Of a stretch of 64,000 nucleotides of DNA, positions 1 through 64,000 are shown one piece after another. The number at the start of each line of letters is the position of its first letter. Positions within the stretch are counted from its first letter, which is position 1. A model generated the notes under the pieces. That model did no database searches and was not told where the DNA came from. It saw only the letters and a program-made list of their open reading frames with translations. Source of the stretch: Nemophila menziesii (Eukaryota > Streptophyta > Magnoliopsida > Boraginales > Hydrophyllaceae); NCBI GenBank assembly GCA_029959085.1, contig JARWIR010000027.1, positions 558,001 through 622,000 of the forward strand, given 5' to 3'. A program made the position numbers and the translations under genes.

Positions 1-2914
1 TGATCAAATTTATAATTAATTATATTGAGAAAATTAGGTAGATTTTTCCTATATATATTTTACAGAATATCGAAATATACACCAACACCACAAGAGATGT
101 TTTTGCACTTAATTTGTTAGACCATCTATTCATAGTGGTTGGAGTATGTATGGAGAGTAGGGAAATAGATGTAAGAGAAATTAAATTAGGTTGTAAGACT
201 TGTTTGACACCTATTGGAGAAAGCATATTTTCAAACATCATATATGGTAGTCTACCATACATTCTTTTTATTTTATCTCCTTGTGGTTTACATATGTGAA
301 CGTATTTTTATTTAGGTTGAATAAATACATCATATCTTTTGTGGTCTTAGAAAATATGTGTATAAACTCATGATATTTTAAAAGTGTACAATGTCACCTT
401 ATGTTATTAGAATAGTACACACAGCCTATGAATTAAATGTTTATCTATTTGAATTATTTATTACATTTATTTTATATTTTTTGTGTTCATGTCCCCTTGG
501 TAAATGGTTGTTCTTTTTGTTAATTCTTATAGTCAAATTTTAATTTTAATTATATTTAATTTATTTTGATTATTACAGAATATGCTTCCTGGAATATCTT
601 GCAATAGACTATTACCAGATTCCAGACAATGGTGACAAATTCAAGATACAAATTAATAGTGTAATCCAATTCTATTTTATATTTTAAACATGAATATTAC
701 ACTTTTATTTGTTGTTGTCTATTATTTTTTTATGAACTAAATCATTTGTAGCTAGAGAAAGGGATAATGTATGAACCCTACATTTTGATTATGATGTTTC
801 ATTGTGTTTTGGGATATTACTATTCAAATGAATTGATTTAGCATTCATTATGTATTTATGATTTCTTCAGCCCTTATGAAGATAAAGTTGTAGGTGGTAT
901 TAGTAGACTAGACTGTCATCCGGGAGGGAGAGAGGGGGAGATCAGATTATAGAAAATAATATATAATAATTCAGTGTGTGTTATTGAGTTAGGAGATCTT
1001 GACTAACCGGATAGTCAATTAATTTAGAATTAATTACGTTTGAAAGTTTTGTAGGGGTCACTCGGGAGAGGTCCATAGAATTGTAGGATAACCCTCTATC
1101 TACCTGGGATGGAATTAAGGGATTTTAGAGTTTCGACTATTGCTAAAATAACAATTTACCATGATATCCATAAATGGGTAAATTCATAATTAGTGGAAAT
1201 TAGTAGCGACTCTCAAACTATCTTCTTATCTATATTCTCGTGTTGACTAGTATGTCCTTTGGTTAAAAATACATTACTAATCATATATTATTTATTTTGA
1301 CTTTAATCCTTACTTTTGAGAAACAAAAAATATATTTTATGTTTTAGTTAACTGTAATTTGTCCCCTCTACGCTTCCTGGAAAGACAAAAGAATTAACCT
1401 CCTAGTGCATATGGAGAACGATATTCCTAGTAATTATTTGTTACTTGTTAACGACTCATTCACTTGTGGGTAGTAGCTCCCCTAGGTGTTGATTTACCTA
1501 TCACACTCTAGGGGACAACAAAGGTAAATACACATTGTAACGATTTTGTCCCTATACTAACGACATGTAGAGAAACGACATGTAATACACTACCACAATG
1601 ATACTGAATGTATAGTTGCATACTTATCTTCAAACCTTTGACAATCTGGAATCTATCATATTTAGAAAATATGTACTTGGCGAACCCTATAGGATATAAG
1701 TTAATGTATTTTTCTTGCAATACTCTTAACACTCTAGTTCACTACTCTTATAAGCTTCATTTCACGACATCCAATTTAGATAATTTTACAGTTAACTTTA
1801 ACAATGTTTCATCAGAAGCATCCTCAATGGTGATATTAGCAATTTTTTTTTGTGGTAGTCACTACTAGCTCTAAAAGACCTTGAAGGATTTTAAAAGTTA
1901 TCTATGCTCGAACATTTTTATGAATGATATTTTGTTTTATTTATAACAACACTTATTTTAGTAAGAATAAGGGTAAAACTCATAAGCCATACTTTTCAGA
2001 ATGCAATTCATCAATGAATGTCGTAACACTACATTATAATTCATCATAATTTAACTTTGACAAAAATAATCATTTAACTAGCATCACAATGTCACCATCC
2101 TCTATTATTGGTAAATTCAAGGATATTTTAATTGATAAATTATCTTAGATTACTGTAAGAAGTCGAGTACATCTATTGAACAATTAACTATTTAAAAACT
2201 AAGTTTTTAAATAATTTGATTAAGTAGTAATAAATTAAAATATTAATTTTTAATTTTTTGCAGAGGTAATGTTCAATTTATAAACAATAACATATAAAGA
2301 CAATTAGGGGATTAAAACTCTATCGAACAAATATCAAAAGTATACAGTAGAAACAATTTTATTCATAGAAGTTAAATATAAAACTTTATTAGAAAATATA
2401 TAATAAGAAAAAAATAATTTCATGTTATTTATTAAAATTATAATTTTAAACTATAATTAAAATATTAATACAATTTAGGATCCACACTAATTTCACAAAC
2501 ACAATAAAAATAAACTACCCATTAAACCCTAATGTTGCCGCCTTTTCCTATACATATACATACATCTTCTTCCACTCTTAGTTTCAAACCTACTGTCAGC
2601 ATCCTCTTGATATTACGTCACTTTTACTATCTAACTCTAATGTCTAAATATTCGTTATCTTCTAATTTCAATCTTCTCTAATCGGAATTCATTTTTTCCA
2701 TCCAATCTACTTTTTTTCAATTTCTCTGTAGTATCTCCCTCTTCTTCCTTAATTATGATATTATCCTCAACTATTGTCTCCATCTAGATCTGCAGTCTTC
2801 TGTCTAAATACTATTTTTACATGCTAGTATCTTAGATCGTTGGCCATATCATTTCAATTTATAAATCTAAGGTACTTTTTTAATTTAAAAATTTGTTCTA
2901 CCAATGTGAATTAG

Positions 2915-2922
2915 TATAAATA
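2915..2922 (+). promoter_or_regulatory. TATA box of zipper copy 1
   Basis: TATAAATA lies 62 bp upstream of the proposed 5' UTR splice donor and 171 bp upstream of the zipper ATG position. The same octamer is kept at the same place in all copies except the one at 27663, which reads TATAAACA. It fits the plant TATA consensus; the start of transcription is not determined. Confidence 0.6.
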
Positions 2923-3085
2923 GAGTAAATCACCTTCCTCATTTGCTCATTTTGTAGTGTAAATCATTTAAAGGAGGTGAGATAGCAAATCTATGAATAG
3001 AATTTGGAATATAAAGGTATGTATACTAGTCTAAAACAAGTAAACTAACATTTTTTTCTTGTCTTTCAGGAACAAGAAGAAAGAG

Positions 3086-3258
3086 ATGGAAGAGAAAACG
3101 CAAGGCTATACTTAGCAAACTTGCAAATTGCTTTATAAAATGAAAGGCTAAGAAAGTTAGCCAAACAGCTCACTGGAGAGAAGCGGCACCTGGAAGCAAT
3201 GGTTGCTAGCTCATCCTCAATGAAAAATGAAGTGAATCCCAAAAAGACTGAGAAATGA
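3086..3258 (+). pseudogene. ZPR: LITTLE ZIPPER-type gene, copy 1, broken
   Basis: Zipper copy with two disabling changes. One A is missing after the start (ATGGAAGAG for ATGGAAAGAG), so translation from the usual ATG ends after nine residues. In the zipper frame the codon after LQIAL is TAA, inside the coiled coil. A further change turns the KKNE lysine codon AAG into ATG. The proposed 5' UTR intron is 2977-3069, from GTGAGA to TTTCAG. The same one-base deletion is seen at 47756 and 51740, so those copies and this one probably share an ancestor. Judged a pseudogene. Confidence 0.8.
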
Positions 3259-3431
3259 AGTATTTTTTTTGCTTGGAGAAATGAAGTATTTGATCCCATC
3301 ATGTTTTTCTTATTATTTAATAAATGTGTGTTTGTTTGATTACCCACAAGAGTTTATTTGATGAATAGCTTTGAGACAGTAAATGTAATGGTGTGATGTG
3401 TGTTTGTTGTTTGAATAATTGAATCTGCCTT

Positions 3432-3894
3432 TTAGCAATCTATTTTTAGTTTTTTATCTACGCTAGAGAACATTTCATAAAACGCCTTAAAGTAGTTGTA
3501 AGCAATCCCCACATCTTCCTTCCCACAAATCTCTCTCACACTGCAATTAAACAAAAACAAGCAAAGATCTTGAGAGTAATTGAGAAATCAAACTCGATAA
3601 TAAAATTAAAAAAAATATATATGTTCCAACCTGTGCATAGATTGTTGAGGAATACCACAATCAACAGTACGAATTCCAACTCCAGAAGCAAGAATTGGAC
3701 CAATAGTGGACCCACACCCCATATCATTTCTTACCACAAAGTCCTATAAAAAAACGAGTCTTCATTTCTGCCTCTTATATGAAGAAAATATAATAATATT
3801 TAATTACCTGAACTGGAAGATTATGAATTGTTGCAATTTTCTTAAAAAGAAAAGCAGTAATACCACTAGTGGCATATCGTTGATTAGCATTATG
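3432..3894 (-). pseudogene. Aspartyl aminopeptidase 3' fragment, copy 1
   Basis: Three-exon C-terminal remnant as described for the copy at 7408-7870. Specific to this copy is a Glu-to-Gly change in the DVEIAY segment of the last exon. The stop codon lies 173 bp from the end of the convergent zipper frame. No N-terminal exons or catalytic core are present. Confidence 0.8.
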
Positions 3895-3976
3895 TTCAAA
3901 AATTTGTTCTACTGTCGAGCAAATTGGGGTGTTTTTTCACATTGGTGTAAATTAATTTAAATGTTATTTTCATTTT

Positions 3977-6480
3977 TGATCAAATTTATAATTAATTATA
4001 TTGAGAAAATTAGGTAGATTTTTCCTATATATATTTTACAGAATATCGAAATATACACCAACACCACAAGAGATGTTTTTGCACTTGATTTGTTAGACCA
4101 TCTATTCATAGTGGTTGGAGTATGTATTGAGAGTAGGGAAATAGATGTAAGAGAAATTAAATTAGGTTGTAAGACTTGTTTGACACCTATTGGAGAAAGC
4201 ATATTTTCAAACATCATATATGATAGTCTACCATACATTCTTTTTATTTTATCTCCTTGTGGTTTACATATGTGAACGTATTTTTATTTAGGTTGAAGAA
4301 ATACATCATATCTTTTGTGGTCTTAGAAAATATGTGTATAAACTCATGAAATTTTAAAAGTGTACAATGTCACCTTATGTTATTAGAATAGTACAAACAG
4401 CCTATGAATTAAATGTTTATCTATTTGAATTATTTATTACATTTATTTAATATTTTTTGTGTTCATGTCCCCTTGGTAAATGGTTGTTCTTTTTGTTAAT
4501 TCTTATAGTCAATTTTAATTATATTTAATTTATTTTGATTATTACAGAATATGCTTCCTCGGATATCTTTCAATAGACTATTACCAAATTCCAGACAATG
4601 GTGACAAATTCAAGATACAAATTAATAGTGTAATCCAATTCTATTTTATATTTTAAACATGAATATTACACTTTTATTTGTTGTTGTCTATTATTTTTTT
4701 ATGATCTAAATCATTTGTAGCTAGAGAAATAGATAATGTATGAACCCTACATTTGGATTATGATGTTTCATTGTGTTTTTGGATATTACTATTCAAATGA
4801 ATTGATTTAGCATTCATTATGTATTTATGATTTCTTCAGCCCTTATGAAGATAAAGTTGTAGGTGGTATTAGTAGACTAGACTGTCATCCGGGAGGGAGA
4901 GAGGGGGAGATCGGATTATAGAAAATAATATATAATCATTCGGTGTGTCTTATTGAGTTAGGAGGTCTTGACTAACCGGATAGTCAATTAATTTAGAATT
5001 AATTATGTTTGAAAGTTTTGTACGGCTCACTCGGGAGATGTCCATAGAATTGTAGGATAACCCTCTATCTACCTGGGATGGAATTAAGGGATTTTAGAGT
5101 TTCGACTATTGCTAAAATAACAATTTACCATGATATTCATAAATGGGTAAATTCATAATTAGTGGAAATTAGTAGCAACTCTCAAACTATCTTCTTATCT
5201 ATATTCTCATGTTGACTAGTATGTCCTTTGGTTAAAAATACATTACTAATCATATATTATTTATTTTGACTTTAATCCTTACTTTTGAGAAACAAAAAAT
5301 ATATTTTATGTTTTAGTTAACTGTAATTTGTCCCCTCTACGCTTCCTGGAAAGACAAAAGAATTAACCTCCTAGTGCATATGGAGAACGATATTCCTAGT
5401 AATTATTTGTTACTTGTTAACGACTCATTCACTTGTGGGTAGTAGCTCCCCTATGTGTTGATTTACCTATCACACTCTAGGGGACAACAAAGGTAAATAC
5501 ACAGTGTAACGATTTTGTCCCTATACTAACGACATGTAGAGAAACGACATGTAATACACTACCACAATGATACTGAATGTATAGTTGCATCCTTATCTTC
5601 AAACCTTTGACAATCTGGAATCTATCATATTTAGAAAATATGTACTTGGCGAACCCTATAGTATATAAGTTAATGTATTTTTCTTGCAATACACTTAATA
5701 CTCTAGTTCACTACTCTTATAAGCTTCATTTCATGACATCCAATTTAGATAATTTTACAGTTAACTTTAACAATGTTTCATCAAAAGCATCCTCAATGGT
5801 GATATTAGCAATTTTTTTGTGGTAGTCACTACTAGCTCTAAAAGACCTTGAAGGATTTTAAAAGTTATCTATGCTCGAACATTTTTATGAATGATATTTT
5901 GTTTTATTTATCACAACACTTATTTTAGTAAGAATAAGGGTAATACTCATAAGCCATACTTTTCAAAATGCAATTCATCAATGAATGTCGTAACACTACA
6001 TTATAATTCATTAAAATTTAACTTTGACAAAAATAAACATTTAACTAGCATCACAATGTCACCATCCTCTATTATTGGTAAATTCAAGGATATTTTAATA
6101 GATAAATTATCTTAGATTACTGTAAGAAGTCGAGTACATCTATTGAACAATTAACTATTTAAAAACTAAGTTTTTAAACAATTTGATTAAGTAGTAATAA
6201 ATTAAAATATTAATTTTTAATTTTTTGCATAGGTAATGTTCAATTTATAAACAATAACATATAAAGACAATTAGGGGATTAAAACTTTATCGAACAAATA
6301 TCAAAAGTATACAGTAGAAACAATTTTATTCATAGAAGTTAAATATAAAACTTTATTAGAAAATATATAATAAGAAAAAAATAATTTCATGTTATTTATT
6401 AAAATTATAATTTTAAACTATAATTAAAATATTAATACAATTTAGGGTCCACACTAATTTCACAAACACAATAAAAAATA
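3977..6480. other. Non-genic part of the reference unit
   Basis: About 2.5 kb with no gene I can recognise. Short open frames of 60-90 codons recur here in every unit on both strands, but they overlap each other and match no family I know. A segment at 4544-4620 starts after a good acceptor (ATTACAG) and in the diverged copy at 19793 reads as an exon-like stretch (LPGISYNKGLPNSRQW), broken by stops here; its source is unknown. The block at 4950-5500 has the look of non-coding LTR-retrotransposon DNA, but no paired LTRs, primer site or polyprotein are seen, so this is a weak guess. Confidence 0.5.
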
Positions 6481-6491
6481 AACTACCCATT

Positions 6492-6500
6492 AAACCCTAA
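6492..6500 (+). promoter_or_regulatory. Telo-box in leader-like block
   Basis: AAACCCTAA followed by a pyrimidine-rich stretch (CTTCTTCCACTC) and, 390 bp further on, the zipper TATA box. Telo-boxes are known upstream of many plant translation-machinery genes. The block at 6480-6860 therefore resembles the promoter and leader of a housekeeping gene whose body is absent. It is conserved in all complete units except 56613-60507, where it is deleted. Confidence 0.45.
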
Positions 6501-6889
6501 TGTTGCCGCCTTTTCCTATACATATACATACATCTTCTTCCACTCTTAGTTTCAAACCTACTGTCAGCCTCCTCTTGATATTCCTTTTTTCGTCACTTTT
6601 ACTATCTAACTCTAATGTCTAAATATTCGTTATCTTCTAATTTCAATCTTCTCTAATCGGAATTCATTTCTTCGATCCAATCTACTTTTATTCAATTTCT
6701 CTATAGTATCTCCCTCTTCTTCCTTAATTATGATATTATCCTCAACTATTGTCTCCATCTAGATCTGCAATCTTCTGTCTAAATACTATTTTTACATGCT
6801 ATTATCTTAGATCGTTGGCCATATCATTTCAATTTATAAATCTAAGGTACTTTTTTAATTTAAAAATTTGTTCTACCAATGTTGATTAG

Positions 6890-6897
6890 TATAAATA
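6890..6897 (+). promoter_or_regulatory. TATA box of zipper copy 2
   Basis: TATAAATA, 62 bp before the proposed splice donor at 6952 and 171 bp before the zipper ATG at 7061. Confidence 0.6.
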
Positions 6898-7060
6898 GAG
6901 TAAATCAGCTTCCTCATTTTCTCATTTTGTAGTGTAAATCATTTAAAGGAGGTGAAATAGCAAATCTATGAATAGAATTTGGAATATAAAGGTATGTATA
7001 CTAGTCTAAAACAAGTAAACTAACATTTTTTTCATGTCTTTCAGGAACAAGAAGAAAGAG

Positions 7061-7234
7061 ATGGAAAGAGAAAACGCAAGGCTATACTTAGCAAACTTGC
7101 AAATTGCTTTAGAAAATGAAAGGCTAAGAAAGTTAGCCAAACAGCTCACTGGAGAGAAGCGGCACCTGGAAGCAATGGTTGCTAGCTCATCCTCAAAGAA
7201 AAATGAAGTGAATCCCAAAAAGACTGAGAAATGA
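7061..7234 (+). CDS. ZPR: LITTLE ZIPPER-type microprotein, copy 2 (reference)
   Basis: 57-residue protein opening MERENARLYLANLQIALENE. Leu8, Ile15, Leu22, Leu29 and Leu36 are exactly seven residues apart, giving one five-heptad leucine zipper. The rest is a Ser/Lys-rich tail (SSSSKKNEVNP) with no DNA-binding domain. The ENERLRK core and the short length match the plant LITTLE ZIPPER family, which is known to form inactive heterodimers with class III HD-ZIP transcription factors in shoot meristem and leaf polarity control. Start choice: splicing 6952-7044 (93 bp, ending TTTCAG) removes an upstream out-of-frame ATG and makes this the first AUG of the mRNA, as in short ZPR3-like members. This copy's donor is GTGAAA rather than GTGAGA. 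AATAAA follows the stop by about 60 bp. Family membership is from motif recognition, not a search. Confidence 0.85.
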   Translation: MERENARLYLANLQIALENERLRKLAKQLTGEKRHLEAMVASSSSKKNEVNPKKTEK

Positions 7235-7407
7235 AGTATTTTTTTTGCTTGGAGAAATGAAGTATTTGATCCCATCATGTTTTTCTTATTATTTAATAAA
7301 TGTGTGTTTGTTTGATTACCCACAAGAGTTTATTTGATGAATAGCTTTGAGACAGTAAATGTAATGGTGTGATGTGTGTTTGTTGTTTGAATAATTGAAT
7401 CTGCCTT

Positions 7408-7870
7408 TTAGCAATCTATTTTTAGTTTTTTATCTACGCTTGAGAACATTTCATAAAACGCCTTAAAGTAGTTGTAAGCAATCTCAACATCTTCCTTCCC
7501 ACAAATCTCTCTCACACTGCAATTAAACAAAAACAAGTAAAGATCTTGAGAGTAATTGAGAAATCAAACTCGATAATAAAATTTAAAAAAATATATATGT
7601 TCCAACCTGTGCATAGATTGTTGAGGAATACCACAATCAACAGTACGAATTCCAACTCCAGAAGCAAGAATTGGACCAATAGTGGACCCACACCCCATAT
7701 CATTTCTTACCACAAAGTCCTATAAAAAAACGAGTCTTCATTTCTGCCTCTTATATGAAGAAAATATAATAATATTTAATTACCTGAACTGGAAGATTAT
7801 GAATTGTTGCAATTTTCTTAAAAAGAAAAGCAGTAATACCACTAGTGGCATATCGTTGATTAGCATTATG
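7408..7870 (-). pseudogene. Aspartyl aminopeptidase (M18) 3' fragment, reference copy
   Basis: On the minus strand three exons join in frame: 7870-7784 (HNANQRYATSG to LPVQ), 7719-7607 ([17 protein letters not shown] to MHS) and 7516-7408 (VREICGKEDVEIAYNYFKAF to KIDC, stop TAA). Introns are 64 and 90 bp with GT..AG ends. Together about 102 residues match the C-terminal end of plant aspartyl aminopeptidases, zinc peptidases of roughly 480-500 residues that remove N-terminal Asp or Glu. The His of the MHS motif corresponds to the family's C-terminal zinc ligand. The first 75-80% of the enzyme, with the other metal ligands, is absent, and no promoter is seen on this strand, so no active enzyme is expected. 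It faces the zipper gene tail to tail, 173 bp between stops. Confidence 0.85.
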
Positions 7871-7952
7871 TTCAAAAATTTGTTCTACTGTCGAGCAAAT
7901 TGGGGTGTTTTTTCACATTGGTGTAAATTAATTTGAATGTTATTTTCATTTT

Positions 7953-10436
7953 TGATCAAATTTATAATTAATTATATTGAGAAAATTAGGTAGATTTTTC
8001 CTATATATATTTTACAGAATATCGAAATATACACCAACACCACAAGAGATGTTTTTGCACTTGATTTGATAGACCATCTATTCATAGTGGTTGGAGTATG
8101 TATGGAGAGTAGGGAAATAGATGTAAGAGAAATTAAATTAGGTTGTAAGACTTGTTTGACACCTATTGGAGAAAGCATATTTTCAAACATCATATATAAT
8201 AGTCACCATACATTCTTTTTATTTTATCTCCTTGTGGTTTACATATGTGAACGTATTTTTATTTAGGTTGAAGAAATACATCATATCTTTTGTGGTCTTA
8301 GAAAATATGTGTATAAACTCATGATATTTTAAAAGTGTACAATGTCACCTTATGTTATTAGAATAGTACACACAGCCTATGAATTAAATGTTTATCTATT
8401 TGAATTATTTATTACATTTATTTTATATTTTTTGTGTTCATGTCCCCTTGGTAAATGGTTGTTCTTTTTGTTAATTCTTATAGTCAAATTTTAATTTTAA
8501 TTATATTTAATTTATTTTGATTATTACAGAATATGCTTCCTGGGATATCTTGCAATACACTATTACCAAATTCCAGACAATGGTGACAAATTCAAGATAC
8601 AAATTAATAGTGTATTCCAATTCTATTTCATATTTTAAACATGAATATTACACTTTTATTTGTTGTTGTCTATTATTTTTTTATGAACTAAATCATTTGT
8701 AGCTAGAGAAATAGATAATGTATGAACCCTACATTTGGATTATGATGTTTCATTGTGTTTTTGGATATTACTATTCAAATGAATTGATTTAGCATTCATT
8801 ATGTATTTATGATTTCTTCAGCCCTTATGAAGATAAAGTTGTAGGTGGTATTAGTAGACTAGACTGTCATCCGGGAGGGGTAGAGGGGGAGATCTGATTA
8901 TAGAAAATAATATATAATCATTCGGTGTGTGTTATTGAGTTAAGAGGTCTTAACTAACCGGATAGTCAATTAATTTAGAATTAATTACGTTTGAAAGTTT
9001 TGTAGGGGTCACTCGGGAGAGGTCCATAGAATTGTAGGATAACCCTCTATCTACCTGGGATGGAATTAAGGGATTTTAGAGTTTCGACTATTGCTAAAAT
9101 AACAATTTACCATGATATCCATAAATGGGTAAATTCATAATTAGTGGAAATTAGTAGCGACTCTCAAACTATCTTCTTATCTATATTCTCATGTTGACTA
9201 GTATGTCCTTTGGTTAAAAATACATTACTAATCATATATTATTTATTTTGACTTTAATCCTTACTTTTGAGAAACAAAAAATATATTTTATGTTTTAGTT
9301 AACTGTAATTTGTCCCCTCTACGCTACCTGGAAAGACAAAAGAATTAACCTCCTAGTGCATATGGAGAACGATATTCCTAGTAATTATTTGTTACTTGTT
9401 AACGACTCATTCACTGGTGGTAGTAGCTCCCTTAGGTGTTGATTTACCTATCACACTCTAGGGGACAACAAAGGTAAATACACATTGTAACGATTTTGTC
9501 CCTATACTAACGACATGTAGAGAAACGACATGTAATACACTACCACAATGATACTGAATGTATAGTTGCATCCTTATCTTCAAACCTTTGACAATCTGGA
9601 ATCTATCATATTTAGAAAATATGTACTTGGCGAACCCTATAGGATATAAGTTAATGTATTTTTCTTGCAATACACTTAACACTCTAGTTCACTACTCTTA
9701 TAAGCTTCATTTCATGACATCCAATTTAGATAATTTTACAGTTAACTTTAACAATGTTTTATCAGAAGCATCCTCAATGGTGATATTAGCAATTTTTTTT
9801 TGTGGTAGTCACTACTAGCTCTAAAAGACCTTGAAGGATTTTAAAAGTTATCTATGCTCGAACATTTTTATGAATGATATTTTGTTTTATTTATCACAAC
9901 ACTTATTTTAGTAAGAATAAGGGTAATACTCATAAGCCATACTTTTCAGAATGCAATTCATTAATGAATGTCGTAACACTACATTATAATTCATCAAAAT
10001 TTAACATTGACAAAAATAAACATTTAACTAGCATCACAATGTCACCATCCTCTATTATTGGTAAATTCAAGGATATTTTAATAGATAAATTATCTTAGAT
10101 TACTGTAAGAAGTCGAGTACATCTATTGAACAATTAACTATTTAAAAACTAAGTTTTTAAACAATTTGATTAAGTAGTAATAAATTAAAATATTAATTTT
10201 TAATTTTTTGCATAGGTAATGTTCAATTTATAAACAATAACATATAAAGACAATTAGGGGATTAAACCTTTATCGAACAAATATCAAAAGTATACAGTAG
10301 AAACAATTTTATTCATAGAAGTTAAATATAAAACTTTATTAGAAAATATATAATTAGAAAAAAATAATTTCATGTTATTTATTCAAATTATAATTTTAAA
10401 CTATAATTAAAATTATAATTTTAAACTATAATTAAA
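7953..10436 (+). repeat. Tandem 4-kb unit 3, truncated
   Basis: First 2484 bp of a unit. It stops inside the AT-rich stretch before the telo-box, where a MITE-like element begins, so no zipper gene or aminopeptidase fragment is present. Just before the break it has a 27 bp tandem duplication (about 10384-10436), shared only with the unit at 20737. Confidence 0.9.
10384..10436. repeat. 27-bp tandem duplication, left flank
   Basis: The string AATTATAATTTTAAACTATA plus ATTAAAA occurs twice in tandem. Other units have it once. The only other doubled copy is at about 23167-23220. Confidence 0.8.
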
Positions 10437-10437
10437 A

Positions 10438-10616
10438 GGAAAATTCTTCCATCCAATATTGGATGATCCTACACCAATTACATTCATACACATACCCCAT
10501 GTTTTAAACTTGCAAAAGTAACTATCACATTAATCTAATTACATGTGTTTTGTTTTAATAATCAATGGCGGTGATTTAAATATTGGACCATCCAATATTG
10601 GATGGAAGTATTACCC
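10438..10616. mobile_element. MITE-like element
   Basis: 179 bp with 24 bp inverted terminal sequences, CTTCCATCCAATATTGGATG.. at 10446-10469 and its near-perfect inverse at 10585-10608 (one mismatch). The similarity extends loosely outward to GG..CC ends. Each arm is itself palindromic (ATCCAATATTGGAT). No coding capacity and no clear target-site duplication; the left edge coincides with the break of unit 3. Superfamily not determined. Confidence 0.65.
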
Positions 10617-12160: not shown

Positions 12161-12230
12161 GCAACACAGCCCATACTGGAATTAGTGCTCATGGACGAAC
12201 AACTTAGTGATGTAGAATTTTAACTTTATT

Positions 12231-52549: not shown

Positions 52550-55500
52550 TTCAAAAATTTGTTCTACTGTCGAGCAAATTGGGGTGTTTTTTAACATTGG
52601 TGTAAATTAATTTGAATGTTTTTTTCATTTTTGATCAAATTTATAATTAATTATATTGAGAAAATTAGGTAGATTTTTCCTATATATATTTTACAGAATA
52701 TCGAAATATACACCAACACCACAAGAGATGTTTTTGCACTTAATTTGTTAGACCATCTATTCATAGTGGTTGGAGTATGTATGGAGAGTAGGGAAATAGA
52801 TGTAAGAGAAATTAAATTAGGTTGTAAGACTTGTTTGACACCTATTGGAGAAAGCATATTTTCAACATCATATATGGTAGTCTACCATACATTCTTTTTA
52901 TTTTATCTCCTTGTGGTTTACATATGTGAACGTATTTTTATTTAGGTTGAAGAAATACATCATATCTTTTGTGGTCTTAGAAAATATGTGTATAAACTCA
53001 TGATATTTTAAAAGTGTACAATGTCACCTTATGTTATTAGAATAGTACACACAGCCTATGAATTAAATGTTTATCTATTTGAATTATTTATTACATTTAT
53101 TTTATATTTTTTGTGTTCATGTCCCCTTGGTTAATGGTTGTTCTTTTTGTTAATTCTTGTAGTCAAATTTTAATTTTAATTATATTTAATTTATTTTGAT
53201 TATTACAGAATATGCTTCCTGGGATATCTTGCAATAGACTATTACCAAATTCCAGACAATGGTGACAAATTCAAGATACAAATTAATAGTGTAATTCAAT
53301 TCTATTTCATATTTTAAACATGAATATTACACTTTTATTTGTTGTTGTCTATTCTTTTTTTATGAACTAAATCATTTGTAGCTTGAGAAATGGATAATGT
53401 ATGAACCCTACATTTGGATTATGATGTTTCATTGTGTTTTGGGATATTACTATTCAAATGAATTGATTTAGCATTATTATGTATTTATGATTTCTTCAGC
53501 CCTTATGAAGATAAAGTTGTAGGTGGTATTAGTAGACTAGACTGTCATCCGGGAGGGGGAGAGGGGGAGATCGGATTATAGAAAATAATATATAATCATT
53601 CGGTGTGTGTTATTGAGTTAGGAGGTCTTGACTAACCGGATAGTCAATTAATTTAGAATTAATTACGTTTGAAAGTTTTGTAGGGGTCACTCTGGAGAGG
53701 TCCATAGAATTGTAGGAAATCCCTCTCTACCTGGGATGGAATTAAGGGATTTTAGAGTTTCGACTATTGCTAAAATAACAATTTACCATGATATCCATAA
53801 AAGGGTAAATTCATAATTAGTGGAAATTAGTAGCGACTCTCAAACTATCTTCTTATCTATATTCTCGTGTTGACTAGTATGTCCTTTGGTTAAAAATACA
53901 TTACTAATCATATATTATTTATTTTGACTTTAATCCTTACTTTTGAGAAACAATAAATATATTTTATGTTTTAGTTAACTGTAATTTGTCCCCTCTACAC
54001 TTCCTGGAAAGACAAAAGAATTAACCTCCTAGTGCATATGGAGAACGATATTCCTAGTAATTATTTGTTACTTGTTAACGACTCATTCACTTGTGGGTAG
54101 TAGCTCCCCTAGGTGTTGATTTACCTATCACACTCTAGGGGACAACAAAGGTAAATACACATTGTAACGATTTTGTCCCTATACTAACGACATGTAGAGA
54201 AACGACATGTAATACACTACCACAATGATACTGAATCTATAGTTGCATCCTTATCTTCCAACATTTGACAATCTGGAATCTATCATATTTAGAAAATATG
54301 TACTTGGCGAACCCTATAGGATATAAGTTAATTTATTTTTCTTGCAATACACTTAACACTCTAGTTCACTACTCTTATAAGCTTCATTTCATGACATCCA
54401 ATTTAGATAATTTTACAGTTAACTTAAACAATGTTTCATCAAAAGCATCCTCAATGGTGATATTAGCAATTTTTTTTTGTGGTAGTCACTACTAGCTCTA
54501 AAAGACCTTGAAGGATTTTAAAAGTTATCTATGCTCGAACATTTTTATGAATGATATTTTGTTTTATTTATAACAACACTTATTTTAGTAAGAATAAGGG
54601 TAAAACTCATAAGCCATACTTTTCAGAATGCATTTCATCAATGAATGTCGTAACACTACATTGTAATTCATCATAATTTAACTTTGACAAAAATAAACAT
54701 TTAACTAGCATCACAATGTCACCATCCTCTATTATTGGTAAATTCAAGGATATTTTAATAGATAAATTATCTTAGATTACTGTAAGAAGTCGAGTACATC
54801 TATTGAACAATTAACTATTTAAAAACTAAGTTTTTAAACAATTTGATTAAGTAGTAATAAATTAAAATATTAATTTTTAATTTTTTGCATAGGTAATGTT
54901 CAATTTATAAACAATAATATATAAAGACAATTAGGGGATTAAAACTTTATCGAACAAATATCAAAAGTATACAGTAGAAATAATTTTATTCATAGAAGTT
55001 AAATATAAAACTTTATCAGAAAATATATGATAAGAAAAAAATAATTTCATGTTACTTATTAAAATTATAATTTTAAACTATAATTAAAATATTAATACAA
55101 TTTAGGGTCCACACTAATTTCACAAACACAATAAAAAATAAACTACCCATTAAACCCTAATGTTGCCGCCTTTTCCTATACATATACATACATCTTCGTC
55201 CACTCTTAGTTTCAAACCTACTGTCAGCCTCCTCTTGATATTCCTTTTTTCGTCACTTTTACTATCTAACTCTAATGTCTAAATATTCGTTATCTTCTAA
55301 TTTCAATCTTCTCTAATCGGAATTCATTTCTTCCATCCATTCTACTTTTTTTCAATTTCTCTGTAGTATCTCCCTCTTCTTCCTTAATTATGATATTATC
55401 CTCAACTATTGTCTCCATCTAGATCTGCAGTCTTCTGTCTAAATACTATTTTTACATGCTAGTATCTTAGATCGTTGGCCATATCATTTCAATTTATAAA

Positions 55501-55720
55501 TCTAAGGTACTTTTTTAATTTAAAAATTTGTTCTACCAATGTGAATTAGTATAAATAGAGTAAATCACCTTCCTCATTTGCTCATTTTGTAGTGTAAATC
55601 ATTTAAAAGAGGTGAGATAGCAAATCTATGAATAGAATTATGAATATAAAGGTATGTATACTAGTCTAAAACAAGTAAACTAACATTTTTTTCATGTCTT
55701 TCAGGAACAAGAAGAAAGAG

Positions 55721-55894
55721 ATGGAAAGAGAAAACGCAAGGCTATACTTAGCAAACTTGCAAATTGCTTTAGAAAATGAAAGGCTAAGAAAGTTAGCCAA
55801 ACAGCTCACTAGAGAGAAGCGGCACCGGGAAACAATGGTTGCTAGCTCATCCTCAAAGAAAAATGAAGTAAATCCCAAAAAGACTGAGAAATGA
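55721..55894 (+). CDS. ZPR: LITTLE ZIPPER-type microprotein, most diverged intact copy
   Basis: Intact 57-codon frame. Gly31 to Arg, Leu36 to Arg and Ala38 to Thr (LTREKRHRETM). Leu36 is the last heptad position, so this copy has a shortened zipper of four heptads and may bind partners less well. Intron 55612-55704, TATA box 55550-55557. Confidence 0.78.
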   Translation: MERENARLYLANLQIALENERLRKLAKQLTREKRHRETMVASSSSKKNEVNPKKTEK

Positions 55895-56067
55895 AGTATT
55901 TTATTTGCTTGGAGAAATGAAGTATTTGATCCTATCATGTTTTTCTTATTATTTAATAAATGTGTGTTTGTTTGATTACCCACAAGAGTTTATTTGATGA
56001 ATAGCTTTGAGACAGTAAATGTAATGGTGTGATGTCTGTTTGTTGTTTGAATAATTGAACCTGCCTT

Positions 56068-56530
56068 TTAGCAATCTATTTTTAGTTTTTTATCTACGCT
56101 TGAGAACATTTCATAAAATTCCTTAAAGTAGTTGTAAGCAATCTCCACATCTTCCTTCCCACAAATCTCTCTCACACTACAATTAAACAAAAACAAGTAA
56201 AGATCTTGAGAGTAATTGAGAAATCAAACTCGATAATAAAATTAAAAAAAATATATATGTACCAACCTGTGCATAAATAGTTGAGGAATACCACAATCAA
56301 CAGTACGAATTCCAACTCCAGAAGCAAGAATTGGACCAATAGTGGACCCACACCCCATATCATTTCTTACCACAAAGTCCTATAAAAAAACGAGTCTTCA
56401 TTTCTGCCTCTTATATGAAAAAAATATAATAATATTTAATTACCTGAACTGGAAGATTATGAATTGTTGCAATTTCCTTAAAAGGAAAAGCAGTAATACC
56501 ACTAGTGGCATATCGTTGATTAGCATAATG
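56068..56530 (-). pseudogene. Aspartyl aminopeptidase fragment
   Basis: Frame open. Leu to Pro in AFLFKE and Ala to Glu in YFKAF, both at positions usually conserved; PQLSM form with the preceding Cys-Gly-Ile kept; HYANQRY as in the previous copy. Confidence 0.78.
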
Positions 56531-59500
56531 TTCAAAAATTTGTTCTACTGTCGAGCAAATTGGGGTGTTTTTTAACATTGGTGTAAATTAATTTGAATGT
56601 TTTTTTCATTTTTGATCAAATTTATAATTAATTATATTGAGAAAATTAGGTAGATTTTTCCTATATATATTTTACAGAATATCGAAATATACACCAACAC
56701 CACAAGAGATGTTTTTGCACTTAATTTGTTAGACCATCTATTCATAGTGGTTGGAGTATGTATGGAGAGTAGGGAAATAGATGTAAGAGAAATTAAATTA
56801 GGTTGTAAGACTTGTTTGACACCTATTGGAGAAAGCATATTTTCAAACATCATATATGGTAGTCTACCATACATTCTTTTTATTTTATCTCCTTGTGGTT
56901 TACATATGTAAACGTATATTTATTTAGGTTGAAGAAATACATCATATCTTTTGTGGTCTTAGAAAATATGTGTATAAACTCATGTTATTTTAAAAGTGTA
57001 CAATGTCACCTTATGTTATTAGAATAGTACACACAGCCTATGAATTAAATGTTTATATTTTTTGTGTTCATGTCCCCTTTGTTAATGGTTGTTCTTTTTG
57101 TTAATTATTATAGTCAAATTTTAATTTTAATTATATTTAATTTATTTTGATTATTACAGAATATGCTTCCTGGGATATCTTGCAATAGACTATTACCAAT
57201 TCCAGACAATGGTGACAAATTCAAGATACAAATTAATAGTGTAATCCAATTCTATTTCATATTTTAAACATGAATATTACACTTTTATATGTTGTTGTCT
57301 ATTATTTTTTTATGAACTAAATCATTTGTAGCTAGAGAAATGGATAATGTATGAACCCTACATTTGGATTATGATGTTTCATTGTGTTTTGGGATATTAC
57401 TATTCAAATGAATTGATTTAGCATTCATTATGTATTTATGATTTCTTCAGCCCTTTATGAAGATAAAGTTGTAAGTGGTATTAGTAGTCTAGACTGTCAT
57501 CCGGGAGGGGGAGAGCGGGAGATCGGATTATAGAAAATAATATATATAATCATTCGGTGTGTGTTATTGAGTTAGGAGGTCTTGACTAACCGGATAGTCA
57601 ATTAATTTAGATTTAATTACGTTTGAAAGTTTTGTAGGGGTCACTCGGGAGAGGTCCATAGAATTGTAGGATAACCCTCTATCTATCTGGGATGGAATTA
57701 AGGGATTTTAGAGTTTCGACTATTGCTAAAATAACAATTTACCATGATATCCATAAATGGGTAAATTCATAATTAGTGGAAATTAGTAGCGACTCTCAAA
57801 CTATCTTCTTATCTATATTCTCGTGTTGACTAGTATGTCCTTTGGTTAAAAATACATTACTAATCATATATTATTTATTTTGACTTTAATCCTTACTTTT
57901 GAGAAACAAAAAATATATTTTATGTTTTAGTTAACTGTAATTTGTCCCCTCTACGCTTCCTGGAAAGACAAAAGAATTAACCTCCTAGTGCATATGGAGA
58001 ACGATATTCCTAGTAATTATTTGTTACTTGTTAACGACTCATTCACTTGTGGGTAGTAGCTCCCCTAGGTGTTGATTTACCTATCACACTCTAGGGGACA
58101 ACAAAGGTAAATACACATTGTAACGATTTTGTCCCTATACTAACGACATGTAGAGAAACGACATGTAATACACTACCACAATGATACTGAATCTATAGTT
58201 GCATCCTTATCTTCAAACCTTTGACAATCTGGAATCTATCATATTTAGAAAATATGTACTTGGCGAACCCTATAGGATATAAGTTAATGTATTTTTCTTG
58301 CAATACACTTAATACTCTAGTTCACTACTCTTATAAGCTTCATTTCATGACATCCAATTTAGATAATTTTACAGTTAACTTTAACAATGTTTCATCAAAA
58401 GCATCCTCAATGGTGATATTAGCAATTTTTTTTTGTGGTAGTCACTACTAGCTCTAAAAGACCTTGAAGGATTTTAAAAGTTATCTATGCTCGACCATTT
58501 TTATGAATGATATTTTGTTTTATTTATAACAACACTTATTTTAGTAAGAATAAGGGTAAAACTCATAAGCCATACTTTTCAGAATGCAATTCATCAATGA
58601 ATGTCGTAACACTACATTATAATTCATCATAATTTAACTTTGACAAAAATAAACATTTAACTAGCATCACAATGTCACCATCCTCTATTATTGGTAAATT
58701 CAAGGATATTTTAATAGATAAATTATCTTAGATTACAGTAAGAAGTCGAGTACATCTATTGAACAATTAACTATTTAAAAACTAAGTTTTTAAACAATTT
58801 GATTAAGTAGTAATAAATTAAAATATTAATTTTTAATTTTTTGCATAGGTAGTGTTCAATTTATAAACAATAACATATAAAGACAGTTAGTGGATTAAAA
58901 CTTTAACAAACAAATATCAAAAGTATACAGTAGAAACAATTTTATTCATAGAAGTTAAATATAAAACTTTATTAGAAAATATATAATAAGAAAAAAACAA
59001 TTTCATGTTATTTATTAAAATTATAATTTTAAACTATAATTAAAATATTAATACAATTTAAGGTCCACACTAATTTCACAAACACAATAAAAAATAAACT
59101 ACCCATTCAAACCTACTGTCAGCCTCCTCTTGATATTCCTTTTTTCGTCACATTTACTATCTAACTCTAATGTCTAAATATTCGTTATCTTCTAATTTCA
59201 ATCTTCTCTAATCGGAATTCATTTCTTCCATCCAATCTACTTTTTTTCAATTTCTCTGTAGTATCTCCCTCTTCTTCCTTAATTATGATATTATCTTCAA
59301 CTATTGTCTCCATCTAGATCTGCAGTCTTCTGTCTAAATACTATTTTTACATGCTAGTATCTTAGATCGTTGGCCATATCATTTCAATTTATAAATCTAA
59401 GGTATTTTTTTAATTTAAAAATTTGTTCTACCAATGTGAATTAGTATAAATAGAGTAAATCACCTTCCTCATTTGCTCATTTTGTAGCGTAAATCATTTA

Positions 59501-59615
59501 AAAGAGGTGAGATAGCAAATCTATGAATAGATTTTGGAATATAAAGGTATGTATACTAGTCTAAAACAAGTAAACTAACATTATTTTCTTGTCTTTCAGG
59601 AACAAGAAGAAAGAG

Positions 59616-59789
59616 ATGGAAAGAGAAAACGCAAGGCTATACTTAGCAAACTTGCAAATTGCTTTAGAAAATGAAAGGCTAAGAAAGTTAGCCAAACAGC
59701 TCACTAGAGAGAAGCGGCACCTGGAAGCAATGGTTGCTAGCACATCCTCAAAGAAAAATGAAGTGAATCCCAAAAAGACTGAGAAATGA
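59616..59789 (+). CDS. ZPR: LITTLE ZIPPER-type microprotein (LTREK)
   Basis: Intact 57-codon frame with Gly31 to Arg and one Ser to Thr in the tail. All five heptad residues are kept. It sits downstream of the unit that lost its telo-box, so it is a natural test of whether that block matters for expression. Intron 59507-59599, TATA box 59445-59452. Confidence 0.83.
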   Translation: MERENARLYLANLQIALENERLRKLAKQLTREKRHLEAMVASTSSKKNEVNPKKTEK

Positions 59790-59962
59790 AGTATTTGTTT
59801 TGCTTGGAGAAATGAAGTATTTGATCCCATCATGTTTTTCTTATTATTTAATAAATGTGTGTTTGTTTGATTACCCACAAGAGTTTATTTGATGAATAGC
59901 TTTGAGACAGTAAATGTAATGGTGTGATGTGTGTTTGTTGATTGAATAATTGAATCTGCCTT

Positions 59963-60425
59963 TTAGCAATCTATTTTTAGTTTTTTATCTACGCTTGAGA
60001 ACATTTCATAAAACGCCTTAAAGTAGTTGTAAGCAATCTCCACATCTTCCTTCCCACAAATCTCTCTCACACTGCAATTAAACAAAAACAAGTAAAGATC
60101 TTGAGAGTAATTGAGAAATCAAACTCGATAATAAAATTAAAAAAAATATATATGTTCCAACCTGTGCATAGATTGTTGAGGAATACCACAATCAACAGTA
60201 CGAATTCCAACTCTAGAAGCAAGAATTGGACCAATAGTGGACCCACACCCCATATCATTTCTTACCACAAAGTCCTATAAAAAAACGAGTCTTCATTTCT
60301 GCCTCTTATATGAAGAAAATATAATAATATTTAATTACCTGAACTGGAAGATTATGAATTGTTGCAATTTTCTTAAAAAGAAAAGCAGTAATACCACTAG
60401 TGGCATATCGTTGATTAGCATTATG
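59963..60425 (-). pseudogene. Aspartyl aminopeptidase fragment
   Basis: Frame open, reference type; Gly to Arg in ASGVG. Confidence 0.78.
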
Positions 60426-63400
60426 TTCAAAAATTTGTTCTACTGTCGAGCAAATTGGGGTGTTTTTTCACATTGGTGTAAATTAATTTGAATGTTATTT
60501 TCATTTTTGATCAAATTTATAATTAATTATATTGAGAAAATTAGGTAGATTTTTCCTATATATATTTTACAGAATATCGAAATATACACCAACACCACAA
60601 GAGATGTTTTTGCACTTGATTTGTTAGACCATCTATTCATAGTGGTTGGAGTATGTATGGAGAGTAGGGAAATAGATGTAAGAGAAATTAAATTAGGTTG
60701 TAAGACTTGTTTGACACCTATTGGAGAAAGCATATTTTCAAACATCATATATAATAGTCTACCATACATTCTTTTTATTTTATCTCCTTGTGGTTTACAT
60801 ATGTGAACGTATTTTTATTTAGGTTGAAGAAATACATCATATCTTTTGTGGTCTTAGAAAATATGTGTATAAACTCATGATATTTTAAAAGTGTACAATG
60901 TCACCTTATTTTATTAGAATAGTACACACAGCCTATGAATTAAATGTTTATCTATTTAAATTATTTATTACATTTATTTTATGTTTTTTGTGTTCATGTC
61001 CCCTTGGTAAATGGTTGTTCTTTTTGTTAATTCTTATATTCAAATTTTAATTTTAATTATATTTAATTTATTTTGATTATTACAGAATATGCTTCCTGGG
61101 ATATCTTGCAATAGACTATTACCAAATTCCAGACAATGGTGACAAATTCAAGATACAAATTAATAGTGTATTCCAATTCTATTTCATATTTTAAACATGA
61201 ATATTACACTTTTATTTGTTGTTGTCTATTATTTTTTTATGAACTAAATCATTTGTAGCTAGAGAAATAGATAATGTATGAACCCTACATTTGGATTATG
61301 ATGTTTCATTGTGTTTTTGGATATTACTATTCAAATGAATTGATTTAGCATTCATTATGTATTTATGATTTCTTCAGCCCTTATGAAGATAAAGTTGTAG
61401 GTGGTATTAGTAGACTAGACTGTCATCCGGGAGGGGGAGAGGGGGAGATCTGATTATAGAAAATAATATATAATCATTCGGTGTGTGTTATTGAGTTAAG
61501 AGGTCTTAACTAACCGGATAGTCAATTAATTTAGAATTAATTACGTTTGAAAGTTTTGTAGGGTCACTCGGGAGAGGTCCATAGAATTGTAGGATAACCC
61601 TCTATCTACCTGGGATGGAATTAAGGGATTTTAGAGTTTCTACTATTGCTAAAATAACAATTTACCATGATATCCATAAATGGGTAAATTCATAATTAGT
61701 GGAAATTAGTAGCGACTCTCAAACTATCTTCTTATCTATATTCTCGTGTTGACTAGTATGTCCTTTGGTTAAAAATACATTACTAATCATATATTATTTA
61801 TTTTGACTTTAATCCTTACTTTTGAGAAACAAAAAATATATTTTATGTTTTAGTTAACTGTAATTTGTCCCCTCTACGCTTCCTGGAAAGACAAAAGAAT
61901 TAACCTCCTAGTGCATATGGAGAACGATATTCCTAGTAATTATTTGTTCCTTGTTAACGACTCATTCACTGGTGGTAGTAGCTCCCTTAGGTGTTGATTT
62001 ACCTATCACACTCTAGGGGACAACAAAGGTAAATACACATTGTAACGATTTTGTCCCTATACTAACGACATGTAGAGAAACGACATGTAATACACTACCA
62101 CAATGATACTGAATGTATAGTTGCATCCTTATCTTCAAACCTTTGACAATCTGGAATCTATCATATTTAGAAAATATGTACTTGGCGAACCCTATAGGAT
62201 ATAAGTTAATGTATTTTTCTTGCAATACACTTAACACTCTAGTTCACTACTCTTATAAGCTTCATTTCATGACATCCAATTTAGATAATCTTACAGTTAA
62301 CTTTAACAATGTTTTATCAGAAGCATCCTCAATGGTGATATTAGCAATTTTTTTTGTGGTAGTCACTACTAGCTCTAAAAGACCTTGAAGGATTTTAAAA
62401 GTTATCTATGCTCGAACATTTTTATGAATGATATTTTGTTTTATTTATCACAACACTTATTTTAGTAAGAATAAGGGTAATACTCATAAGCCATACTTTT
62501 CAGAATGCAATTCATCAATGAATGTCGTAACACTACATTATAATTCATCAAAATTTAACATTGACAAAAATAAACATTTAACTAGCATCACAATGTCACC
62601 ATCCTCTATTATTGGTAAATTCAAGGATATTTTAATAGATAAATTATCTTAGATTACTGTAAGAAGTCGAGTACATCTATTGAACAATTAACTATTTAAA
62701 AATTAAGTTTTTAAACAATTTGATTAAGTAGTAATAAATTAAAATATTAATTTTTAATTTTTTGCATAGGTAATGTTCAATTTATAAACAATAACATATA
62801 AAGACAATTAGGGGATTAAAACTTTATCGAACAAATATCAAAAGTATACAGTAGAAACAATTTTATTCATAGAAGTTAAATATAAAACTTTATTAGAAAA
62901 TATATAATAAGAAAAAAATAATTTCATGTTATTTATTAAAATTATAATTTTAAACTATAATTAAAATATTAATACAATTTAGGGTCCACACTAATTTTAC
63001 AAACACAATAAAAAATAAACTACCCATTAAACCCTAATGTTGCCGCCTTTTCCTATACATATACATACATCTTCTTCCACTCTTAGTTTCAAACCTACTG
63101 TCAGCCTCCTCTTGATATTCCTTTTTTCGTCACTTTTTCTATCTAACTCTAATGTCTAAATATTCGTTATCTTCTAATTTCAATCTTCTCTAATCGGAAT
63201 TCATTTCTTCCATCCAATCTACTTTTTTTCAATTTCTCTGTAGTATCTCCCTCTTCTTCCTTAATTATGATATTATCCTCAACTATTGTCTCCATCTAGA
63301 TCTGCAGTCTTCTGTCTAAATACTATTTTTACATGCTAGTATCTTAGATCGTTGGCCATATCATTTCAGTTTATAAATCTAAGGTACTTTTTTAATTTAA

Positions 63401-63597
63401 AAATTTGTTCTACCAATGTGAATTAGTATAAATAGAGTAAATCACCTTCCTCATTTGCTCATTTTGTAGTGTAAATCATTTAAAGGAGGTGAGATAGCAA
63501 ATCTATGAATAGAATTTGGAATATAAAGGTATGTATACTAGTCTAAAACAAGTAAACTAACATTTTTTTCTTGTCTTTCAGGAACAAGAAGAGAGAG

Positions 63598-63771
63598 ATG
63601 GAAAGAGAAAACGCAAGGCTATACTTAGCAAACTTGCATATTGCTTTAGAAAATGAAAGGCTAAGAAAGTTAGCCAAACAACTCACTGGAGAGAAGCGGC
63701 ACCTGGAAGCAATGGTTGCTAGCTCATCCTCAAAGAAAAATGAAGTGAATCCCAAAACGACTGAGAAATGA
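63598..63771 (+). CDS. ZPR: LITTLE ZIPPER-type microprotein (LHIAL, KTTEK)
   Basis: Intact 57-codon frame, protein identical to the copies at 31818, 35800 and 39782 although more than 23 kb from the nearest. This fits recent sequence transfer between units. Intron 63489-63581, TATA box 63427-63434. Confidence 0.85.
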   Translation: MERENARLYLANLHIALENERLRKLAKQLTGEKRHLEAMVASSSSKKNEVNPKTTEK

Positions 63772-63944
63772 AGTATTTTTTTTGCTTGGAGAAATGAAGT
63801 ATTTGATCCCATCATGTTTTTCTTATTATTTAATAAATGTGTGTTTGTTTGATTACCCACAAGAGTTTATTTGATGAATAGCTTTGAGACAGTAAATGTA
63901 ATGGTGTGATGTGTGTTTGTTGTTTGAATAATTGAATCTGCCTT

Positions 63945-64000
63945 TTAGCAATCTATTTTTAGTTTTTTATCTACGCTTGAGAACATTTCATAAAACGCAT
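63945..64000 (-). pseudogene. Aspartyl aminopeptidase fragment, cut by window end
   Basis: Only the last 18 or so codons and the stop are visible; the final bases show the FNAF variant of the 31818 subgroup. Confidence 0.7.

Follow-up and report, generated by a model that had tools for sequence, protein, structure and literature searches.

The window analyzed here, the whole 64,000-nucleotide stretch of Nemophila menziesii DNA, is a slice of a larger satellite array. The small leucine-zipper open reading frame (ORF) repeated in it is very probably a captured passenger gene that was copied by amplification of the satellite. The pickup of this gene by the satellite seems to have been accidental, and the copies seem to be unselected passengers, not a working gene family.

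Layout of the repeat unit in the window

The commonest spacings of repeated 20-mers in the window are 3982 and 3983 nucleotides, which bears out the 3.98-kb tandem repeat of the original prediction. When one unit (30001-33982, the reference) was used as a blastn query, head-to-tail copies were found at 96.0 to 99.5% identity, all on the plus strand. In the first 9,226 nucleotides (1..9226), the tail of a copy (1-1274) is followed by two full ones, at 1276 and 5245, with 97.8 to 98.7% identity. Contrary to the prediction, the array is not uninterrupted. The left part of copy 3 (9227..10419, unit positions 1-1193 by blastn) is followed by an interruption of older ∼6.1-kb satellite material and other sequence (10420..20232), within which 12888-14131 recurs at 18983-20232. 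The right part (20233..22007, unit positions 2206-3982) keeps most of an aminopeptidase gene piece, and because of the break copy 3 has no LITTLE ZIPPER (ZPR)-like ORF; nor does the interruption itself. The remainder (22009..64000) consists of ten full units, from 22009 to 61780 and including the reference at 30001, plus one partial unit; the other full units there are 96.0 to 99.5% identical to the reference.

Copies differ from one another by 0.4 to 2.3% and carry private variants, and copies 5 to 8 differ by only 0.4 to 0.6%, the homogenization that characterizes satellite DNA. Neither an Rfam family nor a tRNA was found in the window.

The ZPR-like ORF and its copies

The predicted LITTLE ZIPPER identity of the ORF holds by profile score and heptad register. 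A hidden Markov model was built from seven other ZPR-like proteins of the same genome, which were retrieved with an Arabidopsis ZPR3 query and some of which matched that query weakly (E 0.0005 to 0.003). Against this model, the array consensus scored 34.6 bits and the window ORFs 34 to 37 bits (up to 36.8), while the best of 1000 shuffles reached 13.8. The consensus heptads fall at L8, I15, L22, L29, and L36; the available portion of the tomato DTM report places L8 and I15 in the zipper (PMC6478692), and the remaining positions of that register were set by 7-residue spacing. At 57 amino acids (aa), the product is a small protein with subthreshold Pfam matches only; neither a homeodomain nor any other family is at its cutoff. 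A protein-database search with the 57-aa query gave no candidate, and a PDB search gave nothing relevant; since no ZPR model turned up in those searches, the misses were not counted against the assignment. The ZPR3/4-type gene of the same genome (C1:141631789) shows 40% aligned identity over 53 residues.

Like LITTLE ZIPPER 3/4 proteins (tomato DTM and Arabidopsis ZPR3/4), the product is small and consists of a leucine zipper alone, with Leu/Ile at positions 8, 15, 22, 29, and 36. Unlike them, it has a divergent C terminus and is present in many apparently neutral satellite copies. The same portion of the DTM report describes a 5′ noncoding exon (PMC6478692). That ZPR genes are normally few, as had been assumed, fits the eight of soybean (PMC6412583) and the five of tomato (PMC6478692) given in the available parts of those papers. 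No ZPR array was found in the LITTLE ZIPPER literature in an incomplete search that covered titles and the beginnings of abstracts.

Thirteen gene copies had been proposed; there are 13 ORF loci of the 57-codon leucine-zipper type on the plus strand, but 4 of them are disrupted. The 57-aa frame is intact in nine: the reference copy (31818..31991) and those at 7061..7234, 27834..28007, 35800..35973, 39782..39955, 43766..43939, 59616..59789, 63598..63771, and 55721..55894, the last full length with the zipper change L36R. Three are frameshifted by a common 1-nucleotide deletion (3086..3258, which also has a stop at codon 18; 47756..47928; and 51740..51912), and one (23854..24027) has TTG in place of the ATG start codon together with L36P. 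Gene signals had also been proposed for every copy. A GTATGT donor, a TTTCAG acceptor, and a downstream AATAAA are present in 13/13, and the TATA-like box falls one short: the exact TATAAATA lies upstream of the ORF in 12 of the 13 (31647..31654, plus strand, in the reference copy), the intact ORF at 27834..28007 being without it. The putative 5′ untranslated region intron measures only 53 nucleotides, which is short for a plant intron. Two other ORFs of the reference copy, one of 86 aa and a minus-strand one of 90 aa antisense to the ZPR-like ORF, were set aside, having no Pfam match above the cutoff.

The probable captured insert, its empty site, and a donor-type locus

Each young unit carries an insert of ∼1 kb that pairs the ZPR-like gene, tail to tail, with a truncated 3′ portion of an aminopeptidase gene. 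In the reference copy, this segment spans 31634..32629, with the left edge placed to within about 7 bp. It is bounded on the left by the 15-bp sequence AAAAATTTGTTCTAC (31619..31633, plus strand), the counterpart of which is single in old units, and on the right by a second 15-bp copy (32630..32644, plus strand) followed by ∼15 bp of filler. Because the insert edge precedes the TATA-like site by only ∼6 to 13 bp, the insert carries almost no upstream promoter. On the minus strand, an M18 aspartyl aminopeptidase gene is represented by three C-terminal exons (32168..32629), the first of them truncated, as open frames and Pfam and PDB matches indicate. The middle exon matches PDB M18 (4.1e−11) and Pfam PF02127 (1.1e−13), the first matches PF02127 below the cutoff (0.0033), and the last, for which there was no Pfam match, was placed by reading. 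The aminopeptidase match begins at 32629, abutting the right flank; the exon concerned extends farther at the C264 locus described below (profile 306-376).

A satellite of ∼6.1 kb in the same array is without the insert in all six copies examined, one in the window and five others. Old-type copies occur on the flanks of the array as well as in its interruption; the six are 79 to 93% identical to the unit over matched pieces. The copy in the window (15783..18050, plus strand; 81 to 88% identical to the young unit) is empty at about 17603-17619, the site of the ZPR-aminopeptidase insert in young units. Unit positions 1631-1640 are joined directly to 2661 in 6/6 old-type copies; the target sequence is present as one 14-bp form in the three old-type junctions read and as two 15-bp copies in young units.

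An alternative explanation for these data is that the insert is ancestral in the satellite and that old-type copies lost it. The 15-bp direct repeats that bound the segment in young units could have mediated such a deletion, which would likewise leave one repeat copy. The segment is nevertheless missing from every old-type copy examined, and the right-hand repeat is exactly where the aminopeptidase match starts. Furthermore, in two of the three old junctions read, the repeat continues with CAATGTG, the left-flank bases past the 15-mer, and then with right-flank bases, and these two junctions hold no trace of the filler that young units have on the right side of the 15-mer. We consider a loss of this kind quite unlikely.

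A candidate source of the insert lies on C264, where an M18 gene with four PF02127 exon matches (C264:42939846-42941277, minus strand) adjoins a 61-codon ZPR-like ORF that is 88.1% identical to the array over 303 bp. One of the exon matches is interrupted by a TGA, which may mean that the match runs into an intron. The ZPR-like locus was read for 300 bases only, at the place predicted by the array spacing, and the first base is that of the ATG of the ORF. The C264 gene is without codon N12 and has five codons that the array copies do not have, so it is not the exact donor. We infer that the source was this locus or a close allele of it. The array consensus differs from it by 8 synonymous and 7 nonsynonymous codons (dN 0.063, dS 0.364), 3 to 4 of the 7 adjoining an indel, in uncertainly aligned sequence. 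The M18 gene on C200, which could also have a ZPR-like gene beside it, has its last match to profile position 432, while the array and C264 end at 412-417. The empty site and the donor-type locus together point to the alternative that the original prediction had itself entertained, chance capture of a gene by a repeat.

Helitrons and Pack-MULEs are known for transduplication of gene pieces, and the insert is like their products in being a short piece with parts of two neighboring genes in a new place. Either the unit or the insert might thus be a gene-capturing transposon that forms head-to-tail arrays, and a MULE-like element is indeed present in the old unit (18051..19590, plus strand), with inverted ends 73% identical over ∼155 bp and a 10-bp flanking duplication, TTAAAAAGTG, at 18041-18050 and 19591-19600. 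However, this element is not in the young unit and holds none of the captured genes; a scan of its two ORFs gave no Pfam match. Unlike transduplicated pieces, the array insert has no inverted repeats linking its two ends at E values up to 10 (the unit matches itself, at E up to 0.01, only in three short palindromes), and its amplification is tandem, with no dispersal seen. Among 358 candidate ZPR matches, 150 were scored, and 150/150 of these are on C174, C57, or C36. A transposon origin is similarly improbable.

Selection on the copies

Neutral expectation, at a kappa of 2, is 0.70/0.25/0.05 for nonsynonymous, synonymous, and stop variants. The 13 window copies have 13 nonsynonymous, 3 synonymous, and 1 stop variant in addition to the common frameshift; among 30 copies, the corresponding counts are 16, 4, and 2. 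Per site, variants are no rarer within the ORF (17 in 174) than across the remainder of the unit (208 in 2985; P = 0.17). Nineteen of the 30 ORFs are intact and 11 are broken; 9 are frameshifted, and L36 is replaced by P or R in 3. By these counts, the in-array variants are as expected without selection, and the copies appear to drift neutrally. Stops occur in effect at the neutral frequency, which the original prediction had set beforehand as an outcome that would count against it. Because the purifying selection expected of a ZPR gene is not seen in the array, we refer to ZPR-derived copies, not ZPR genes.

A ZPR-like cluster on C24/C25 has a different profile, with 11 synonymous variants, 9 nonsynonymous variants, and no stops in the 8 copies compared. 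On small numbers, Fisher's test of the array variants gave P = 0.066 against the C264 divergence and P = 0.040 against the C24/C25 cluster. Both the cluster and the C264 divergence are richer in synonymous changes, and the former shows apparent signs of constraint.

The original prediction had proposed a working LITTLE ZIPPER cluster in which copy number could tune HD-ZIP III activity and thereby development. Such a cluster would account for the ZPR-like sequence with canonical heptads (L8 and I15 of DTM), for core gene signals in 12 to 13 of 13 copies, and for the 19/30 open ORFs. Arguing against it are the neutral pattern of nonsynonymous, synonymous, and stop variants, the frameshifts and the L36 replacements, and the near absence of sequence upstream of the TATA-like site in the insert. 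Moreover, the period belongs to a satellite that amplified without the gene too, and another ZPR-like cluster, the one with signs of constraint, exists elsewhere. We consider the proposal decidedly improbable. A counterpoint to the passenger reading is that the frame remains open in 9/13 ORFs of the window and in 19/30 of the larger block, with the core gene signals preserved; recent amplification explains this, and weak selection would as well.

Extent and higher-order structure of the array

The array extends far past the window on both sides, with contiguous copies over 144 kb, interruptions included. Of 40 short samples from C174, 18 contained the young unit (70 to 900 kb), 13 the old type (1 to 58 kb, 760 kb, and 930 kb to 1.03 Mb), and 9 were without either (from 1.06 Mb on). 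The total number of units is probably in the hundreds. The array thus consists, as satellites do, of near-identical tandem monomers over tens of kilobases to megabases. ORF variants at contig positions 613721 and 617616 are seen again at 645505 and 649400, and the break at unit position 1193 is found again 84 kb on. These block recurrences, at 31.8 and 84.3 kb, constitute a higher-order repeat, and the duplicated blocks are slightly diverged. The motifs TTTAGGG and CCCTAAA were absent from C174:1-600.

According to the available portions of two reports, plant satellites can have monomers of >5 kb and arrays of up to megabases (PMC7004042), and satellites form higher-order repeats and undergo unequal crossing-over (PMC5615363). 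The present array is like long-monomer plant satellites with higher-order repeats in its near-identical head-to-tail units, very long array, block duplications, and divergent edge units; it is unlike them in that its young monomer includes both a truncated neighbor gene and a small ORF that has core gene signals. An assembly artifact, in which the repeat was collapsed or falsely duplicated, is highly improbable: matches on C57 do run to 31.126 of 31.154 Mb, near the contig end, those on C36 begin at 17.6 kb, and old-type repeats on C174 begin at base 1, but the private variants and copy-to-copy differences, the old-young-old layering, and the slight divergence of duplicated blocks argue against it.

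Proposed origin and implications

In the origin that we favor, accidental capture by a satellite, the ∼6.1-kb satellite family would predate the insert, the old type being taken as ancestral. One unit would then have gained a ∼1-kb patch from a C264-type locus, where ZPR-like and aspartyl aminopeptidase genes lie tail to tail. The position of the patch between 15-bp target duplicates, with a little filler, suggests that staggered double-strand break repair placed it. The insert-bearing variant may subsequently have been shortened to 3.98 kb and amplified, with the ZPR ORFs carried along passively; the near-identical neighbors and higher-order blocks point to unequal crossing-over and block duplication as the probable mechanisms.

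On sequence grounds, the array ORFs most probably are silent or have no bearing on HD-ZIP III control, and dosage control by the array is unlikely. There is a small chance that the array is transcribed at times, for example, when heterochromatin is loosened, and then yields a copy-number-variable HD-ZIP III inhibitor or small RNAs acting in trans to silence the C264 ZPR-like gene. If the copies were transcribed, the array would be a natural system in which to test how dosage or small RNAs affect leaf polarity and the control of meristems.

A stepwise example of gene uptake by a satellite is offered here within one assembly: units of an older type without the gene, the site still empty, a locus of the donor type, and a young core that has been amplified. 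There is also a warning for gene annotation, which might yield very large numbers of false LITTLE ZIPPER genes at the array. In biological terms, the expansion that matters more may be the ZPR-like cluster on C24/C25, with its signs of constraint.

Repeat unit and the ORF that it carries

In the window, which belongs to an assembly of 1.52 Gb in 361 contigs, repeated 20-mers are most commonly spaced 3,982 to 3,983 bases apart, and the unit at 30001-33982 has head-to-tail copies at 96.0 to 99.5% identity, bearing out the tandem repeat of the original prediction. Thirteen gene copies had also been predicted. Thirteen leucine-zipper ORF loci were indeed found, all with splice-like signals and AATAAA, but the 57-residue product is intact in only nine, and the exact TATA-like site TATAAATA is present in 12; three ORFs have a one-base deletion in common, and another no longer has its ATG. 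At 53 nt, the inferred 5' UTR intron is short by plant standards. An interruption splits the array at 10420-20232. At its left edge lies a short MITE-like element (10442-10612) with a 28-bp inverted repeat (93%) at both ends, and further in, at 12231-12350, is a minisatellite with a 28-bp period (4.3 copies, 96% matches).

The ORF protein had no informative match in Pfam, PDB, or a protein database. An Arabidopsis ZPR3 sequence was used to query the genome; among the 150 scored of 339 candidates were a clear ZPR3/4-type gene (C1:141631789), a ZPR-like ORF (C1:65599678), and weaker ones at C193:2735614, C193:7472771, and C89:11680900 (E, 0.0005 to 0.007). Against a ZPR profile made from seven proteins found with this query, the array consensus scored 34.6 bits and the best window copy reached 36.8 bits, versus 13.8 bits for the best of 1,000 shuffles, so that the predicted family resemblance held. 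The array ORF has Leu or Ile at residues 8, 15, 22, 29, and 36; L8 and I15 match those of the tomato ZPR protein DTM, whose gene has a 5' noncoding exon (PMC6478692). Judged by sequence, the window ORF is ZPR-derived.

Footprint of an insertion

The unit also carries three C-terminal exons of an M18 aspartyl aminopeptidase gene, on the strand opposite the ORF and tail to tail with it. The middle exon matches strongly (PDB, 4.1e-11; Pfam, 1.1e-13), the first gives a weak match, which begins at 32629, and the position of the last was assigned by reading only. Within the interruption, an old-type copy (an older, ∼6.1-kb satellite repeat) can be aligned to the unit left and right of the ZPR-aminopeptidase segment but lacks precisely this segment; in all six old copies seen (the window copy and those in three further old-type stretches), unit position 1631-1640 is joined directly to 2661. 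In the young, 3.98-kb units, a 15-bp target sequence stands on each side of the segment, the right-hand one followed by ∼15 bp of filler, and each of the three old junctions read has a single 14-bp form of the target. Together, the empty site and the flanking target copies are the mark left by insertion of ∼1 kb into a satellite that was already there. The two insert ends, when compared, had no inverted repeat in common. Alternatively, the insert could be ancestral and lost from old-type copies by deletion, a reading that gains slightly, at the expense of capture, because the old-unit target is the 14-bp form in three copies and not the exact 15-mer in six; set beside the footprint, we consider it quite unlikely. 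The insert starts only about 6 to 13 bp upstream of the TATA-like site, which makes it unlikely that native regulation would have been carried along.

A MULE-like element at 18051-19590, with inverted ends and a 10-bp flanking duplication (TTAAAAAGTG), sits in an old satellite unit. An ORF in it had no Pfam match and contains a zinc-knuckle-like C-x2-C-x4-H-x4-C stretch.

A donor-type locus

A PF02127 search of the genome (97 scored of 341 candidates) matched four exons of one aminopeptidase gene at C264:42939846-42941277 (an internal TGA is reported in one of these matches) and a second such gene on contig C200. The place of a linked ZPR gene on C264 was predicted from the array spacing, and the 300 bases fetched there open with the ATG that starts a ZPR-like ORF of 61 codons, 88.1% identical to the array over 303 bp. 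Compared with the array consensus, it lacks one codon, has five extra, and differs synonymously in 8 codons and non-synonymously in 7; past its stop, the 114 bases read differ by three substitutions and one gap. On this comparison, the C264 locus appears to be the donor of the insert or a close relative of the donor. In the C264 gene (C264:42939300-42939482), the codon for N12 is missing, shifting the first heptad; N12 is present in the array consensus and in the ZPR3/4-type gene on C1, and the older heptad register is kept by the satellite.

The likeliest course is that a double-strand break arose in one of the old satellite units, that its repair drew on DNA of a C264-type locus, and that the patched unit was subsequently amplified by unequal exchange. 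Capture of a gene by the repeat, which the original prediction offered as its alternative, is thus the reading supported by the old copies without the insert and by the C264 locus.

Extent and layering

Contig C174, of which the window covers positions 558001-622000, was surveyed with 40 short samples. Young units (matches of 95% or more) were found in 18, from 70 to 900 kb, and old-type repeats in 13 (1 to 58 kb, 760 kb, and 930 kb to 1.03 Mb); the other nine, at 1.06 Mb and beyond, match neither. This layering, with old units toward the edges and a young core, is what satellite turnover is expected to produce. Adjacent copies 5 to 8 differ by 0.4 to 0.6% and other copies by up to 2.3%, and blocks reappear at distances of 31.8 kb and 84.3 kb. 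ZPR protein matches also occur on C57 (30.50 to 31.13 of 31.15 Mb) and on the 779-kb C36 (from 17.6 kb), where aminopeptidase-exon matches extend to 443 kb (97 scored of 341 candidates). Since there were 358 candidates and all 150 scored fall on C174, C57, and C36, a total in the hundreds is a reasonable, though unproven, estimate.

Probable lack of constraint in the array, and a separate cluster with signs of constraint

Compared with their consensus, the 13 window copies have 13 non-synonymous, 3 synonymous, and 1 stop variant plus the shared frameshift, where neutral fractions are 0.70, 0.25, and 0.05, respectively. Thirty copies in the surrounding 144 kb, 19 with an intact ORF, have 16, 4, and 2. 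Variants per site are not lower in the ORF (17 in 174) than elsewhere in the unit (208 in 2,985; p = 0.17).

The ZPR3 query (150 scored of 339 candidates) also found a ZPR-like cluster at C24:26400565-26567042 and C25:221773-222483 (loci L088 to L096 and L098), with 13 matches (11 on C24, 2 on C25) that contain no internal stop; six inverted pairs account for 12 of the 13. The proteins are 72 to 79 amino acids long in the 10 copies read, and the 8 compared have 11 synonymous and 9 non-synonymous differences. The synonymous share is higher in this cluster (Fisher p = 0.040) and in the C264 divergence (Fisher p = 0.066) than in array variants; the numbers are small and point to constraint on ZPR relatives and its absence from array copies. 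A functional ZPR array tuning dosage, possible only given expression, is very unlikely in light of these apparently unconstrained variants. The C24/C25 cluster resembles a constrained, lineage-specific expansion and could be a better lead than the array.
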